From Candidatus Poribacteria bacterium (GTDB lineage: Bacteria; Poribacteria; WGA-4E; WGA-3G), in assembly GCA_022827625.1 (NCBI GenBank), contig JAJEIE010000018.1, forward strand, positions 1-64,000: 64,000 bases of DNA, in the 5' to 3' direction. The position numbers were made by a program, and so were the translations under genes. Below, piece after piece: positions 29,024 through 35,377 of the stretch. The notes beneath the pieces are model-generated. The model made no database searches, was not told the origin of the DNA, and saw nothing but the letters and a program-made list of their open reading frames with translations. Position 1 is the stretch's first letter; every line of letters starts with the position of its first letter.

Positions 29024-30373
29024 ATGCAAAATGATGCTGAATTAATTCGCCGCACACTTGATGGTGATGAAATCGCTTTCACTACGCTTGTGAGAAAATA
29101 CCAGAAACACGTTCATGCCCTCGCGTGGCGCAAAATGGGGGACTTCCATATCGCTGAAGACATTACACAAGAGACCTTCCTGAAAGTGCATCAGAACCTG
29201 GCAACGCTGAAAGAACTGGAGCGATTTCCGGGGTGGCTGTATGTGATTGCAACCCGGTGCTGCATTGCGCGACTCCGGAAGAAACGGATGCATGCCCAAC
29301 TCGTGGAGGACATCGACCTAATGACAAAAGGAAAAGATACGTATTCCCAACATGTGGCAGATGAGCAGGCAAAAATGACAACTGAGGTGCAGCGAGAAGT
29401 CGTCAAAAAGTTGCTTGCCAAGCTACAAGAGAGCGATCGCACGATCATAACGCTATACTATTTTGGAGAGATGACGTGTGAAGAAATCAGCAAGTTTCTG
29501 GGAGTATCGGCAAATACGATTAAGAGTCGGCTCAGTCGCGCACGTCAACGTTTGAAGAAGGAAGAACCCTTGATTCAAGAGGCACTCGGCACCTTCCAGA
29601 TTTCCCCAAATTTGACGCAGAACATCGTCCAAGCCGTAAAAGAAAAAGGCGGCAGCATCAAACCCGTGTCACCTAAAGGGAGCAAACCTTTGGTCCCCTG
29701 GGCAGCAGTCGCGTCAACCGCTATCGTAGCCCTGCTGATCCTCGGAACGGGCAATGAATACATAGCCCGCTTTCAGCAGCCTTATAGTTTGGAGGCGACT
29801 TCGGAGATGAAGGTCGATATTGTAGAGGCACCCATAATATCTATGAAGCAGGTCAAACCCGCCGTGAAAATCCAACAGTCAGCAATTAGCAATCAGCAGC
29901 CAGCAGTGTCCCGCAAGTCCACACGCGACGTGCGTAGCAGTCGGAAAGCGGACGCTGGTAACAATCCATTGACCCCTGATAGCCAACAGCCAATAGAAGA
30001 AACACAGCAGACGCAAATGGAGGTATTGGACTTCTTTCGGATGCCGGAAAGCGGGCACCTGGACTACACCGTCGTCTACATTGATGCCACAGCGTTTGAA
30101 GACGGCGGGACGTTAACGATTGACATTCGCGTCGGCAGCGGTGAAGCAGCGGGTTCATTCGATCTATTTGACGGTGACAGGAAACTCCCAACGGGAGGCA
30201 TACGCAGATCAAGCAATGCCCTCGCACATCAGTGGGGAATTCAACCCGGTGGCACAGGAACAATCACCTATCAGTTTGATCAAGGTCAAGTCTTTCGACT
30301 GGGGGCTGCAAGCGATTGGCAGAGCGAAAAAGGAAGTACGAACGCGTTTTACGCGCAAATTTCTATTCGATAA
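29024..30373 (+). CDS. ECF sigma factor with transmembrane anchor and extracytoplasmic C-terminal domain
   Basis: A 449-residue fusion. Residues 1-190 are an ECF sigma-70 factor: sigma2 has LVRKYQKHVHALAWRKMGD, DITQETFLKV and FPGWLYVIATR; sigma4 has ITLYYFGEMTCEEISKFL and VSANTIKSRLSRARQRLKKE. A TM helix at about 224-246 (WAAVASTAIVALLILG) would anchor it, with the rest outside. After a low-complexity linker (SAISNQQPAVS) comes a beta-rich domain of about 115 residues (FEDGGTLTIDIRVGSG, WGIQPGGTGTITYQFDQG) that recurs at the C-terminus of the selenoprotein-like gene at 30543. AGGAGG precedes the ATG. Sensing and gene control are apparently joined in one chain. Confidence 0.88.
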   Translation: MQNDAELIRRTLDGDEIAFTTLVRKYQKHVHALAWRKMGDFHIAEDITQETFLKVHQNLATLKELERFPGWLYVIATRCCIARLRKKRMHAQLVEDIDLMTKGKDTYSQHVADEQAKMTTEVQREVVKKLLAKLQESDRTIITLYYFGEMTCEEISKFLGVSANTIKSRLSRARQRLKKEEPLIQEALGTFQISPNLTQNIVQAVKEKGGSIKPVSPKGSKPLVPWAAVASTAIVALLILGTGNEYIARFQQPYSLEATSEMKVDIVEAPIISMKQVKPAVKIQQSAISNQQPAVSRKSTRDVRSSRKADAGNNPLTPDSQQPIEETQQTQMEVLDFFRMPESGHLDYTVVYIDATAFEDGGTLTIDIRVGSGEAAGSFDLFDGDRKLPTGGIRRSSNALAHQWGIQPGGTGTITYQFDQGQVFRLGAASDWQSEKGSTNAFYAQISIR

Positions 30374-30542: not shown

Positions 30543-32204
30543 ATGAAGACATTCGGTATCGGTTGCCTGATTTCTGTCCTGTTTCTGCAATACGGATTTG
30601 CAAACGAGACATCCACTCCCAACAGCGTCGCTCTCACACTTGACAGCGACGCTAACGTGGTCGTTAAAGGCTTTATCGCTCCGATTGCGTACACCCAAAG
30701 CAACTTCCATGTAGCGTGGGAATCATTGGCGAATCTACGAGTCGCCGAGCCTGAAAAGCAGTATCCGACAGCGATCTTTCGGGCGTTTCTTCCGACAGAA
30801 GCAGGCTTGCGAAGAGGGAGAGGAGAAGGATTTTTCCAAAGACTGCAAAAACTCCTCCGCGAAAATCCGACATCACGCGGAAATAGCGTCTCCGTTGGCG
30901 AAGTCTGGCAGATTGAACGCTCAGGATTATTGGCGTTGCTGAAGCAACTTCACCCGAACCCGCATCTGGATATGCACATCAATTGGGGAGATTCCCGCGG
31001 AACATGGGCGTGTCTGCGTGCTTACAATGCCGAAATAGCCCACATCGTGTTTCGCGTTCATGCAGAGTTCAGGTTAGCGGACGGTTGGTTTACACCCTCA
31101 CTGTTTACTGGACATCTCGTCATCAACCGTACAGACGAGAAAGTCGCCTTCTTCCAGATGTACGTTCCGCAGGGTACACTCAACTTCGATGTCAACCGAT
31201 ACCATAACGACAGGAGCATCTTTACAACGGATGCAGGCTTTTGCCCGCAAATCGAACTTCGTGCCGGTACAGAAGCTATAATTCAAGATACCCAATTTTC
31301 TGAAGCAATACCGTTAGCGGAAGCCGAACGTATCTTAATACGACGTTTTTATAAATCACAGCAAATTAACTGGGTATCAGTGGACGCAGCCTTGGAAATG
31401 GCACGGTCAGAACAGAAACCGATTCACATTGTTTCAACAGATGGCCCACTGACTGACGAAGCGTGCTGAGGGAGCGGCAAGAGCCTGAGGGCAGTTGCTC
31501 TCTCTGATGACAAGAATATCAAACTCTTGAACGAAAATTTTATTAACACGTGGGTGCTCAATACCGATATGGAACGCTTGCGGGATGCAAAAGCTCTTGA
31601 CGACCTGCCGCCTTTGACACAAATCATCGTTCAAGGATGGAAAAGACACTCTCCGGTAGATTGTCTGATTATCTCACCTGCACTTGAACTCATGGGTAGG
31701 CAGCCTGTTAATGAGTTGCCCTTGCGCAATAAGGCGAAGCGGTATCGGCTGTTCCTTTCAGAATCGTTAGCAGGAAAACACCCCGGAGTCGGTGAGAGCA
31801 CCCCGATGCCATTATCAAGCAGTCGGGGGGTTGTTCTTGATCGGATACAACCCGCCGTGGAAGTATTGGATACTTTTCGTTACGCGACTGCCACTGAAGA
31901 CGACACTGTTATAAGAATTGACACGACTGCCTTTGAAAATGGTGGCACATTGACTATTGACATTCAAATCGGTAGGGGAGCCCTTGTCGGTTCGTTCGAT
32001 CTCTTCCCTGACGATAGTGCCCTTCAGACAGAAGGAACACCTCAGAACGCACTCGCCCAAGCATGGGGGATTCAACCCGGTGAAACGGGAACAATTACGT
32101 ATCGGTTTGACAAGGGGCAAATCTTTCAACTCCGTGCCACTGGCGGTTGGGTCAATCAGGAAGGAGGTATCAACGCTTTTCGAGCCCAAATCTCTGTTCA
32201 GTAA
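30543..32204 (+). CDS. Selenoprotein N-like protein with in-frame TGA (Sec) and sigma-linked C-terminal domain
   Basis: One frame runs from ATG 30543 (GGAGG 7 bases upstream) to 32204, interrupted only by TGA at 31467-31469. Read as selenocysteine, the site is A-C308-U309-G-S-G-K-S-L-R, then LLNENFINTW. This matches the selenoprotein N redox site (SCUGSGRTLRE, then LLNESFISTW). The protein has an N-terminal signal peptide, a SelN-like body with NPTSRGNSVSVGEVWQIE, then a beta-rich C-terminal domain (FENGGTLTIDIQIG, WGIQPGETGTITYRFDKG) shared with the sigma factor at 29024. A stem-loop directly after the TGA fits a bacterial SECIS. Split reading as two genes is less likely because the motif spans the stop. 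Confidence 0.8.
31467..31504 (+). promoter_or_regulatory. Candidate bacterial SECIS element
   Basis: Starting within the TGA, gagggagc (31468-31475) pairs with gctctctc (31497-31504) over 8 bp with one G-U pair. An apical gcc-ugag-ggc (31483-31492) places a G in the loop 17-20 nt after TGA, within the spacing known for bacterial SECIS hairpins. Confidence 0.6.
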
Positions 32205-32328: not shown

Positions 32329-33804
32329 ATGTTACACACCCTAATACGCCAGGAGATTTTAGGCCATCTGATGAGCGCGCGATTCCTCGCCGCTGTCGTG
32401 ATTACACTTCTGCTCGTCGTCGCCAATACCGTTGTGCTGATCGACGCGCACGAAAATCGGGTGGCGAGTTACAGCCAACAAGCGAAAGTTCATCGTGAGA
32501 AAGCGGTAGCGGCGGAAACCTATTCGGAGTTGAAACTTTTTGTTGAACGCCCTCCGAACCCCCTCAGCCTTTTGAGTGCGGGTTTAGAAAAGCGTTTGGG
32601 GACAACCGTTGAGATTTATCACGGCGAAGTGCCGACGATTTCAAGTGTTTCCGCACGAAATTTAGAGAATCCCTATCTAAATCTTTTTTCACAGATCGAC
32701 CTCGTGTCCATCTTTCAAGTGGTGCTGAGCCTATTGGCACTGCTTTTCGCTTATGATGCAATCGCGGGAGATTGGGAAAGCGGTACCCTGCGTCTGGTTA
32801 TCTCACACCCGGTGGGACGCGGTGCTATTCTGTTAGGGAAATATATCGCTGCAATGATATGTCTGCTGCTCCCCGTGCTGATGAGCCTGCTGATAGTGAT
32901 GCTGCAGCTTTCCCTCGCGAGTTCGATTCAGCTGGGTACAACGGATTTCCTCAGGATTGGCGGAATCGTCGCCACTACAATTGTCTACCTATCTGTTTTT
33001 TACCTGATTGGGCTGTTGATCTCCACGATGACCCGCCGCACGGCTACCTCCCTGATGCTCTGTATGTTCTTATGGGTCATTCTGGTGCTTGTGTATCCGA
33101 ACTGGAGTCGGTTTACCCTTAATCCTGTAGGCGACATGCGTCCAGAAAGACAATCCGCATATCAACAGGTTGAGCAGATTTGGGAAGAAGTTGACAGGGA
33201 AGAACAACGGTTCTTAGCCAACAGTCCGCTTGAAGGGGAACCGCCAAGGTTTAATATAGGTTATTCCGGGAGCTCCTCCTCGAGCGGCAGAAGGTATGGG
33301 TTTAATATGACCAAAGTGAACGCCGATTCAGAACCGAGCCTCCCGCATTTTCAAGACTATCAAGCGTTCATTGGTACGACGCACATCCGCGCCGCAGAAA
33401 AGATTGGGTTGATAAACGAACAACGTTGGGCACGGACCAGCATTCGACAAGCAACATGGGATGAACGGTTGATGAAATTCAGCCCGGCAAGCCTCTATAC
33501 CTTTGCAACTTCCGCTTGGGTAGGTACGGATATAGATGGCATGTTAGATTTCGTCGGCGCAGTCCAAGCGTACCGCCAGATACTAATTGACTATTTGCAC
33601 GATAAAGATGCGTTTGCGAGTCGACGTTGGTTTGCTTCTGATCAAGGAGCAGTGGATTGGTGGGATTTGCCTCAGTTTCGCTTTGCGCCGGTGGATGTCT
33701 CCGAAAACGCACAACGCGCCCTGATGGATGTGTCCCTCCTTTTCGTTATGAACCTGGTGCTGTTTATGGTAAGCTTCCTAATTTTTATCAAAGTTGAAGT
33801 TTAA
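32329..33804 (+). CDS. ABC-2-type transporter permease paralog
   Basis: A 491-residue membrane protein with the same plan as the permease at 27429: N-terminal LIRQEILGHLMSARFLAAVV (TM1), an extracytoplasmic segment, a TM block with LLFAYDAIAGDWESGTLRLV, a second soluble segment of about 160 residues with a Ser/Gly-rich stretch, and a last TM (VSLLFVMNLVLFMVSFLIF). It overlaps the frame of the next permease closely (stop 33804, next start 33818), so the pair probably form a heterodimer. The ATPase at 38021 is the likely motor. Confidence 0.85.
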   Translation: MLHTLIRQEILGHLMSARFLAAVVITLLLVVANTVVLIDAHENRVASYSQQAKVHREKAVAAETYSELKLFVERPPNPLSLLSAGLEKRLGTTVEIYHGEVPTISSVSARNLENPYLNLFSQIDLVSIFQVVLSLLALLFAYDAIAGDWESGTLRLVISHPVGRGAILLGKYIAAMICLLLPVLMSLLIVMLQLSLASSIQLGTTDFLRIGGIVATTIVYLSVFYLIGLLISTMTRRTATSLMLCMFLWVILVLVYPNWSRFTLNPVGDMRPERQSAYQQVEQIWEEVDREEQRFLANSPLEGEPPRFNIGYSGSSSSSGRRYGFNMTKVNADSEPSLPHFQDYQAFIGTTHIRAAEKIGLINEQRWARTSIRQATWDERLMKFSPASLYTFATSAWVGTDIDGMLDFVGAVQAYRQILIDYLHDKDAFASRRWFASDQGAVDWWDLPQFRFAPVDVSENAQRALMDVSLLFVMNLVLFMVSFLIFIKVEV

Positions 33805-33817
33805 GGGAGAAAACACA

Positions 33818-35377
33818 ATGATCAAACATATCATTCAAAGAGAGTTCTTTGACCATCTCAACAGTCTCCGCTTCGCTTTGACTGTTATCATCATGGCAGC
33901 ACTCATGGTCACCAACGCAGTGGTGCATCTTCAGAGCCACCCAGATAAGGTTCGGAGTTATTCCGAGAACGTCGCCGGTGACCGCGACACATTGCAGTCG
34001 CGGACGGATCTCTATGAACTTTTGAGAAAGGGTCCCGGTAAACTTTATAAACAGCCATCCTCACTAACTTTCATTGCAGACAGTAGCGATGCCTTTTTGC
34101 CGGATCGCGGAACGCAAAATTGGGGGTCCTGGAGTAGAACTGTGGGATTCGGTACACAGGTAAAAAGTATCTGGTCGGCGGACTATCCCACCGCCAACCC
34201 GAATTCACGAGACTTACGTCCCAAGGCGACCAAGATAGATTGGGTCTTTATCATCACCTATCTGCTCTCTTTCATTCCACTCTTGTTTACGTTTGATGCC
34301 CTCTCTGGCGAAAGAGAAAACGGAACGCTTCGATTGTGTCTCGCCAACTCTATTTCGCGACCTGCTTTATTAACAGGGAAGTTCTTAGGCACGCTGATTG
34401 CTGTCCTGATTCCGTTCTATTTTGCGGTCCTATTGAATTTGGCGGTAATTTCCACCGATACTTGGACGCAGCTCGGGGCGGCAGATTGGGGACGTTTGGG
34501 GATGATTCTGCTGATTGCCTCAGGCTATGCGAGTATTTTCATTGCTGTCGGGCTGATGGTTTCCGGAGGAACGCGAGATACCCGCGTCAGCCTCGTCGTG
34601 CTGTTAATTATCTGGGTGGCGCTCGTCGTCTTTATGCCTTCCACCCTCGGGACGCTTTCCACAAAATGGATGTCCCCCGTCCAAACCGCTCACCAACGGG
34701 AAACGGCAAGGAGGAGCGCGCTTGATCAGATTAACGATGATTTCCAGAAGCGAATGACGGACAAACAAGTGGCGAAGTCACAAACAGGAAACCTCCTCAA
34801 TCAATTCATGGACCTTATGAAAACTTCGCCGAAAGCGGCGGAAAAATTGGCAAAGGAGAAAGAGGCAGAACTCAGGGCGGCGATGGCGAATTTAGAGTCC
34901 CAAAAGGCAGATGAGGAAGAATTGCGTATCAAGGCTGAGTTCGTCAACAAAGATGTCGAAATTCGGGAACGACTGAACCGAGCGCATCTACAGGCACAAC
35001 TTGCGCAGGTTCAGCGGGCGCGGGTCGTGACGCGGTTCTCGCCAGCAGCGATCGTCCAATACGCCCTTGAATCTATGACTGGCACCGGATTAAAACGGCA
35101 CTTGCAATTTCTTGACAGCGTGCACCTTCATATGAGACAGTTCCGAAATTTCATCACTGAAACCGATCGTGCCGATACAGAGAGCCTCCATATTATCGGA
35201 ATCCCCGAAGGAATGTCTAAAAAGCCGATTTCACCGCAGGCACTTCCAAGCTTTGCGGATAAAATCACTTTTAGCGATACCTTCAACGCAGCGATCGTAG
35301 ATATGCTGTTACTCCTCGGACTGCTCGGAATATCTCTTTTAGGAGCGTTCTTCGTCTTCAGTCGCTCAGATATATAA
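33818..35377 (+). CDS. ABC-2-type transporter permease paralog
   Basis: A 519-residue permease. Start ATG 33818 has GGGAG eight bases upstream; an in-frame TTG at 33794 overlaps the previous gene. N-terminal IIQREFFDHLNSLRFALTVI is TM1. The motif LLFTFDALSGERENGTLRLC marks the TM block. The second soluble segment (about residues 285-420) is a predicted coiled coil rich in Lys, Glu and Ala. The last TM is MLLLLGLLGISLLGAFFVF. It has the same family as its upstream partner, and the DUF3352-like gene follows ten bases later. Confidence 0.85.
   Translation: MIKHIIQREFFDHLNSLRFALTVIIMAALMVTNAVVHLQSHPDKVRSYSENVAGDRDTLQSRTDLYELLRKGPGKLYKQPSSLTFIADSSDAFLPDRGTQNWGSWSRTVGFGTQVKSIWSADYPTANPNSRDLRPKATKIDWVFIITYLLSFIPLLFTFDALSGERENGTLRLCLANSISRPALLTGKFLGTLIAVLIPFYFAVLLNLAVISTDTWTQLGAADWGRLGMILLIASGYASIFIAVGLMVSGGTRDTRVSLVVLLIIWVALVVFMPSTLGTLSTKWMSPVQTAHQRETARRSALDQINDDFQKRMTDKQVAKSQTGNLLNQFMDLMKTSPKAAEKLAKEKEAELRAAMANLESQKADEEELRIKAEFVNKDVEIRERLNRAHLQAQLAQVQRARVVTRFSPAAIVQYALESMTGTGLKRHLQFLDSVHLHMRQFRNFITETDRADTESLHIIGIPEGMSKKPISPQALPSFADKITFSDTFNAAIVDMLLLLGLLGISLLGAFFVFSRSDI

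Follow-up and report, generated by a model that had tools for sequence, protein, structure and literature searches.

A predicted SELENON-like selenoprotein gene with an in-frame TGA beside an ECF sigma factor gene in Candidatus Poribacteria

In a 64,000-nucleotide stretch of Candidatus Poribacteria DNA (GenBank assembly GCA_022827625.1, contig JAJEIE010000018.1; hereafter the window), two open reading frames (ORFs) within 30543-32204 share one frame, and a single TGA is the sole break between them. We asked whether they constitute one gene whose TGA encodes selenocysteine (Sec), and whether the product is a bacterial relative of selenoprotein N (SelN; SELENON/SEPN1), as a first-pass annotation made from the sequence alone had proposed. 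SelN was long termed animal-specific (PMC2375036; Lobanov et al.), and rare algal members were added later (PMC7539508). A catalogue of 119 families of prokaryotic selenoproteins, dated May 2026, does not include it. Our search of the open-access literature, including papers on prokaryotic selenoproteomes, found no bacterial SelN, and no paper in the literature searched linked Poribacteria with selenoproteins.

One gene across an in-frame TGA

The proposed arrangement of two same-frame ORFs split by one TGA was borne out, and 30543-32204 is confirmed as one gene whose in-frame TGA is predicted to encode Sec (Table 1). Translated through the junction, the protein reads DEAC-U-GSGKSLR...LLNENFINTW. 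Across many genomes, roughly 190 distinct related ORFs carry the same single TGA at the homologous codon, which is far above chance; the genomes are related, and the loci are not independent. Among approximately 200 distinct related ORFs of Poribacteria, the equivalent of codon 309 was TGA in 191, Gly in 5, Ser in 1 and Cys in 0. Cys-containing homologs at this position, a suggested check of the Sec assignment, were thus not found, and non-Sec homologues carry Gly (or Ser) instead. Homologues continue past the TGA rather than ending at it, and dN/dS is ~0.2 upstream and ~0.2 downstream, indicating equal purifying selection on both sides. Copies with the TGA are also carried by single-contig chromosomes.

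Table 1 Features of the SELENON-like locus in the window.
Feature	Position	Strand	Remarks
ECF sigma factor gene	29024..30373	+	hydrophobic segment at about residues 222-241
C-terminal domain of the ECF sigma factor	29978-30367		homologous to the beta-sandwich of the SelN-like protein
Possible ribosome-binding site, ggagg	~8 nt 5' of the ATG of the SELENON-like gene
SELENON-like selenoprotein gene	30543..32204	+	553 aa, Sec309, TAA stop
N-terminal signal peptide, MKTFGIGCLISVLFLQYGFA	30543..30605	+	read from sequence
SelN-specific beta-rich N-terminal domain	30624..31268	+	residues 28-242; homologous to human SELENON; model
Thioredoxin-like domain	31350..31778	+	residues 270-412, with Cys308-Sec309; structural match
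In-frame TGA, predicted selenocysteine	31467..31469	+	Sec309
Bacterial SECIS hairpin	31487..31502	+	31487-31492 pairs with 31497-31502; loop AGUU 31493-31496; 23 nt past the UGA; covariation
C-terminal beta-sandwich domain	31815..32201	+	residues 425-553; structural match; shared with the ECF sigma factor
Two ABC-2 type permease genes	32329..35377	+	directly downstream; mainly at window-type loci

In five orthologues of the window gene (L010, L016, L017, L018 and L037), the Sec codon is replaced by Gly (GGA/GGC) while the remaining gene is intact; two of these, L016 and L018, have also lost the conserved G of the SECIS loop described below. Genomes G001, G009, G030 and G031 retain other Sec copies. 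The five substitutions imply that Sec is not indispensable for every paralogue. One further copy (G045:C27:12070-13029) contains internal TGA, TAG and TAA codons and is possibly a decayed gene.

The family was present in 65 of the 85 Poribacteria genomes examined, all belonging to three families of one order; within this set it was absent from a fourth family of that order and from other classes. A single contig scan with a close-relative query recovered relatives in Candidatus Poribacteria genomes, and no relatives were found on plasmids or viral contigs. The window's genome encodes five copies with one TGA each. In positive genomes, a 26-nt DNA pattern for the Cys-Sec motif matched 1-14 times (14 times in G032); its reversed control matched once across all 61 genomes. 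At four loci (L111, at 5.7-19.0 kb, and L059, L071 and L092), roughly six to eight SelN-like genes, each ~1.5-2 kb long and most of them lacking a signal peptide, follow one another head to tail; the longest run is the eight of L111.

Homology to SELENON and domain structure

The first-pass annotation had likened the junction to the redox site of vertebrate SelN and the helix that follows it, and this likeness was upheld. Against human SELENON, the window protein scored 121 bits in BLASTP (1e-34, 27% identity over ~250 aa), the reference being a hand-entered version of the human sequence, on which all scores against human rest. Sec aligned on Sec, the LLNE-FI-TW helix was aligned too, and similarity extended well past the junction. 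Human SELENON was likewise matched by 188 of 188 related copies at up to 163 bits, while shuffled human controls did not exceed 27 bits. The homology spans both the N-terminal and the thioredoxin-like domains (again with the hand-entered human sequence), which the two forms have in common together with the motif [SA]-C-U-G-S-G-[KR]-x-L-R, its Sec at the same place, and the near absence of Cys in place of Sec.

Human SELENON is closest to a second, smaller group, to which the C26 copy of the window's genome belongs and in which identities reach 38%; the beta-sandwich is missing from several of these proteins. In a tree, human SELENON formed a long branch beside this group, and long-branch effects leave the direction of any transfer undecidable. 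Three members of the group (L042, L079 and L112) have lipobox-like N-termini (SLQSC, LLSC) and are possibly lipoproteins. Another second-group protein (L093:12066-13949, minus strand) is fused at its C-terminus to an AhpC/TSA-Redoxin domain, a hint at a redox partner.

The bacterial and animal forms also differ. SELENON of the vertebrate type contains a calcium-binding EF-hand, whereas a Pfam search with E up to 1 found none in the window protein, which we therefore class as a SELENON homologue and not as the ER calcium sensor of PMC7474598. Instead of the N-terminal type II ER membrane anchor of SELENON, the window copy has a signal peptide, and the arrayed copies have no hydrophobic N-terminus; an ER does not exist in bacteria. 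Reduction of SERCA or other client proteins is a further trait of the vertebrate type. Further distinctions are the SECIS, which lies in the 3'UTR in SELENON but is a bacterial element within the ORF here, the extra C-terminal beta-sandwich of most bacterial copies, and the many paralogues per bacterial genome. Neither Pfam nor NCBIfam contained a family that matched the SelN-like protein above its cut-off. Single-sequence and profile searches of the PDB returned no SelN homologue by sequence, and the structure of SELENON was unsolved as of PMC7474598.

An AlphaFold2 model of the window protein (pLDDT 83) comprises three parts. Residues 270-412 adopt a thioredoxin-like fold, matching DsbH, ERp18 (TXNDC12), AGR2/AGR3, a UAS domain and others with VIA-align Z scores of 9.6-11.8 over 114-126 residues (9.8-11.8 for the proteins named). 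The model places Sec309 between strand 294-299 and a helix starting at 313, in the loop where the active site of these proteins would be expected, and this would put U309-G-S-G312-K in register with CxxC-K. Compared with the same proteins, the bacterial domain shows 12-16% identity, has C-U-x-x-G instead of CxxC and is attached to the SelN-specific domain. By structural comparison, residues 425-553 form a beta-sandwich resembling PliG, collagenase C-terminal and GOLD domains. The N-terminal domain, predicted alone, reached a pLDDT of 91.4; Foldseek's top matches included no clear solved relative (best Z 5.2).

Selenocysteine decoding

The window's genome encodes the complete set of Sec genes that the first-pass annotation had proposed to look for. 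A selB gene (348 bits) adjoins a tRNA-Sec gene (selC) with anticodon UCA on one contig, and both selA (595 bits) and selD (362 bits) were found. The selD gene (L119) has an in-frame TGA of its own, in the context C-A-G-U-A-S-K, and is itself predicted to encode a selenoprotein.

A SECIS element starting at the TGA had been suggested, and one is present downstream of this codon, albeit not as the long stem first drawn. The conserved element is a 6-bp hairpin (Table 1) with a folding energy of -8.6 kcal/mol in the window and a loop of the form A-G-[G/U]-U in 102 of 107 sequences. Across 95 sequences, 95.7% of the cells of this hairpin (+20..+25 / +30..+35) were paired, and three pairs had changed on both sides, giving 14 double-change cells vs 2.8 in shuffles; none of 500 shuffles scored as high, and all slid controls were beaten. 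Between the TGA and about +37, many third codon positions hardly vary; beyond it they are free to change. Relative to synonymous shuffles, the folding energy of the first 42 nt was lower (mean z -1.66), and that of the next stretch was not (+0.30). The hairpin agrees with the published bacterial SECIS consensus (PMC13188914), with no difference of note. With a covariance model of the element, whose training set had included these genes or close relatives, all five SelN genes of the genome scored E 3e-11 or better, and nothing else came near; of the weaker matches elsewhere in the genome, the two inspected (L138 and L139) revealed no convincing Sec gene.

The long stem (31468-31475 with 31497-31504) with its apical gcc-ugag-ggc can form, and it belongs to the minimum-energy structure of the window RNA taken alone (-19.9 kcal/mol). 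It is not conserved: across the 95 sequences, one inner pair was formed in 17%, and the covariation score was not clearly above shuffles.

These observations bear on two other readings of the TGA. The locus could hold two separate genes, or a pseudogene created by a nonsense mutation, seeing that the TGA does break the frame and is a true stop elsewhere in the window. This is almost certainly not the case, given that the codon is TGA in ~190 paralogues and orthologues, that selection is equal on either side, and that complete single-contig genomes look alike. The TGA could also be translated as another amino acid, through a reassigned code or leaky readthrough, and selection on the downstream part would be expected likewise from non-Sec readthrough alone. 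However, TGA is the stop codon of 6 of the 37 long ORFs within the window, indicating that the code is not reassigned; moreover, all four sel genes are present, selD itself contains a predicted Sec, the TGA is followed by a covarying SECIS, and the codon aligns with the Sec of SELENON. We consider the chance of such a non-Sec reading to be minimal. Sec decoding and SELENON homology are, in contrast, well supported by computation, and the interpretation as a bacterial SelN-like protein is supported.

Export, the ECF sigma factor and possible functions

The expectation of a distinct C-terminal domain and an ECF sigma neighbour also held, and the two proved to be connected: the beta-sandwich of the SelN-like protein recurs as the C-terminal domain of the neighbouring sigma factor with 54% identity. 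Some ECF sigma factors are known to carry C-terminal extensions anchored in the membrane. In the protein of 29024-30373, as in those, sigma regions 2 and 4 precede a hydrophobic segment and then another domain; unlike in other extended ECF sigma factors, this domain is homologous to that of a neighbouring selenoprotein.

Among the 102 copies with enough flanking sequence, N-termini were clearly either hydrophobic or not, and 38 had a hydrophobic, signal-type N-terminus. All 24 copies beside such a sigma gene are predicted to be exported, against 0 of 64 non-exported copies with that neighbour (Fisher p 7e-14, a nominal value because the loci are related). The non-exported copies lie mostly in head-to-tail arrays, and the majority retain the C-terminal domain in the absence of a sigma neighbour.

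Taken as a whole, we regard it as very likely that the window gene encodes an exported SELENON-homologous selenoprotein, decoded through SelB and SECIS, that most likely works as an envelope thiol-disulfide oxidoreductase and is probably tied to an ECF sigma factor. SelB would bind the hairpin and bring Sec-tRNA (UCA) to the UGA, and the signal peptide would direct secretion. In the vicinal Cys308-Sec309 pair, Sec would stand where CxxC has its attacking cysteine, with Gly312 replacing the second cysteine, and the protein, acting on envelope proteins, would pass through a Cys-Sec selenenylsulfide in each cycle. The C-terminal beta-sandwich may be a docking or sensing module, common to the periplasmic tail of the membrane-bound sigma factor. 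Of these proposals, the envelope thiol-disulfide oxidoreductase role is the most likely function, and the protein is probably a reductase. Given the domain common to both, the selenoprotein and the neighbouring sigma factor are probably parts of a single envelope redox-response unit, a shared domain being no proof of interaction.

Exported copies might instead serve chiefly as redox sensors for the adjacent sigma factor rather than as enzymes with many substrates. The common C-terminal domain and the strict tie of sigma genes to the exported class fit this idea, but most non-exported copies hold the same domain with no such neighbour, and up to 14 Sec copies per genome better suit an enzymatic or substrate-diversified role; we think the sensor role possible, if rather unlikely. 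The source of the gene invites another alternative, namely recent gain from a sponge host or host DNA contaminating the assembly, since Poribacteria are recognised sponge symbionts and SelN occurs in a sponge (PMC3473315). The bacterial gene context, the signal peptide and the in-ORF SECIS argue against this, as do the presence in three families of one order and an identity to human of only 27-38%; copies in single-contig chromosomes make contamination unlikely, and a host origin of either kind is highly improbable. An older transfer, in either direction, is conceivable. One form of it would have SELENON exchanged between early animals and Poribacteria (or their ancestors) by way of sponge symbiosis, perhaps in the direction from bacterium to animal. 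We view it as speculative and doubtful. If it were true, an animal selenoprotein of muscle disease would have its origin in an oxidoreductase of the bacterial envelope, and the in-ORF SECIS would have given way to one in the 3'UTR (or the reverse).

Enrichment of selA/selB has been reported in sponge symbionts, in a passage that names no clients (PMC5649159), and the bacterial SelN-like proteins are candidate clients. For a single family, such a number of Sec paralogues in one genome is an unusual investment in selenium. The alignment allows the N-terminal domain of SELENON, the product of a human muscle-disease gene, to be modelled with confidence, and its diverse bacterial homologues would probably be easier subjects for structural work and enzymology.
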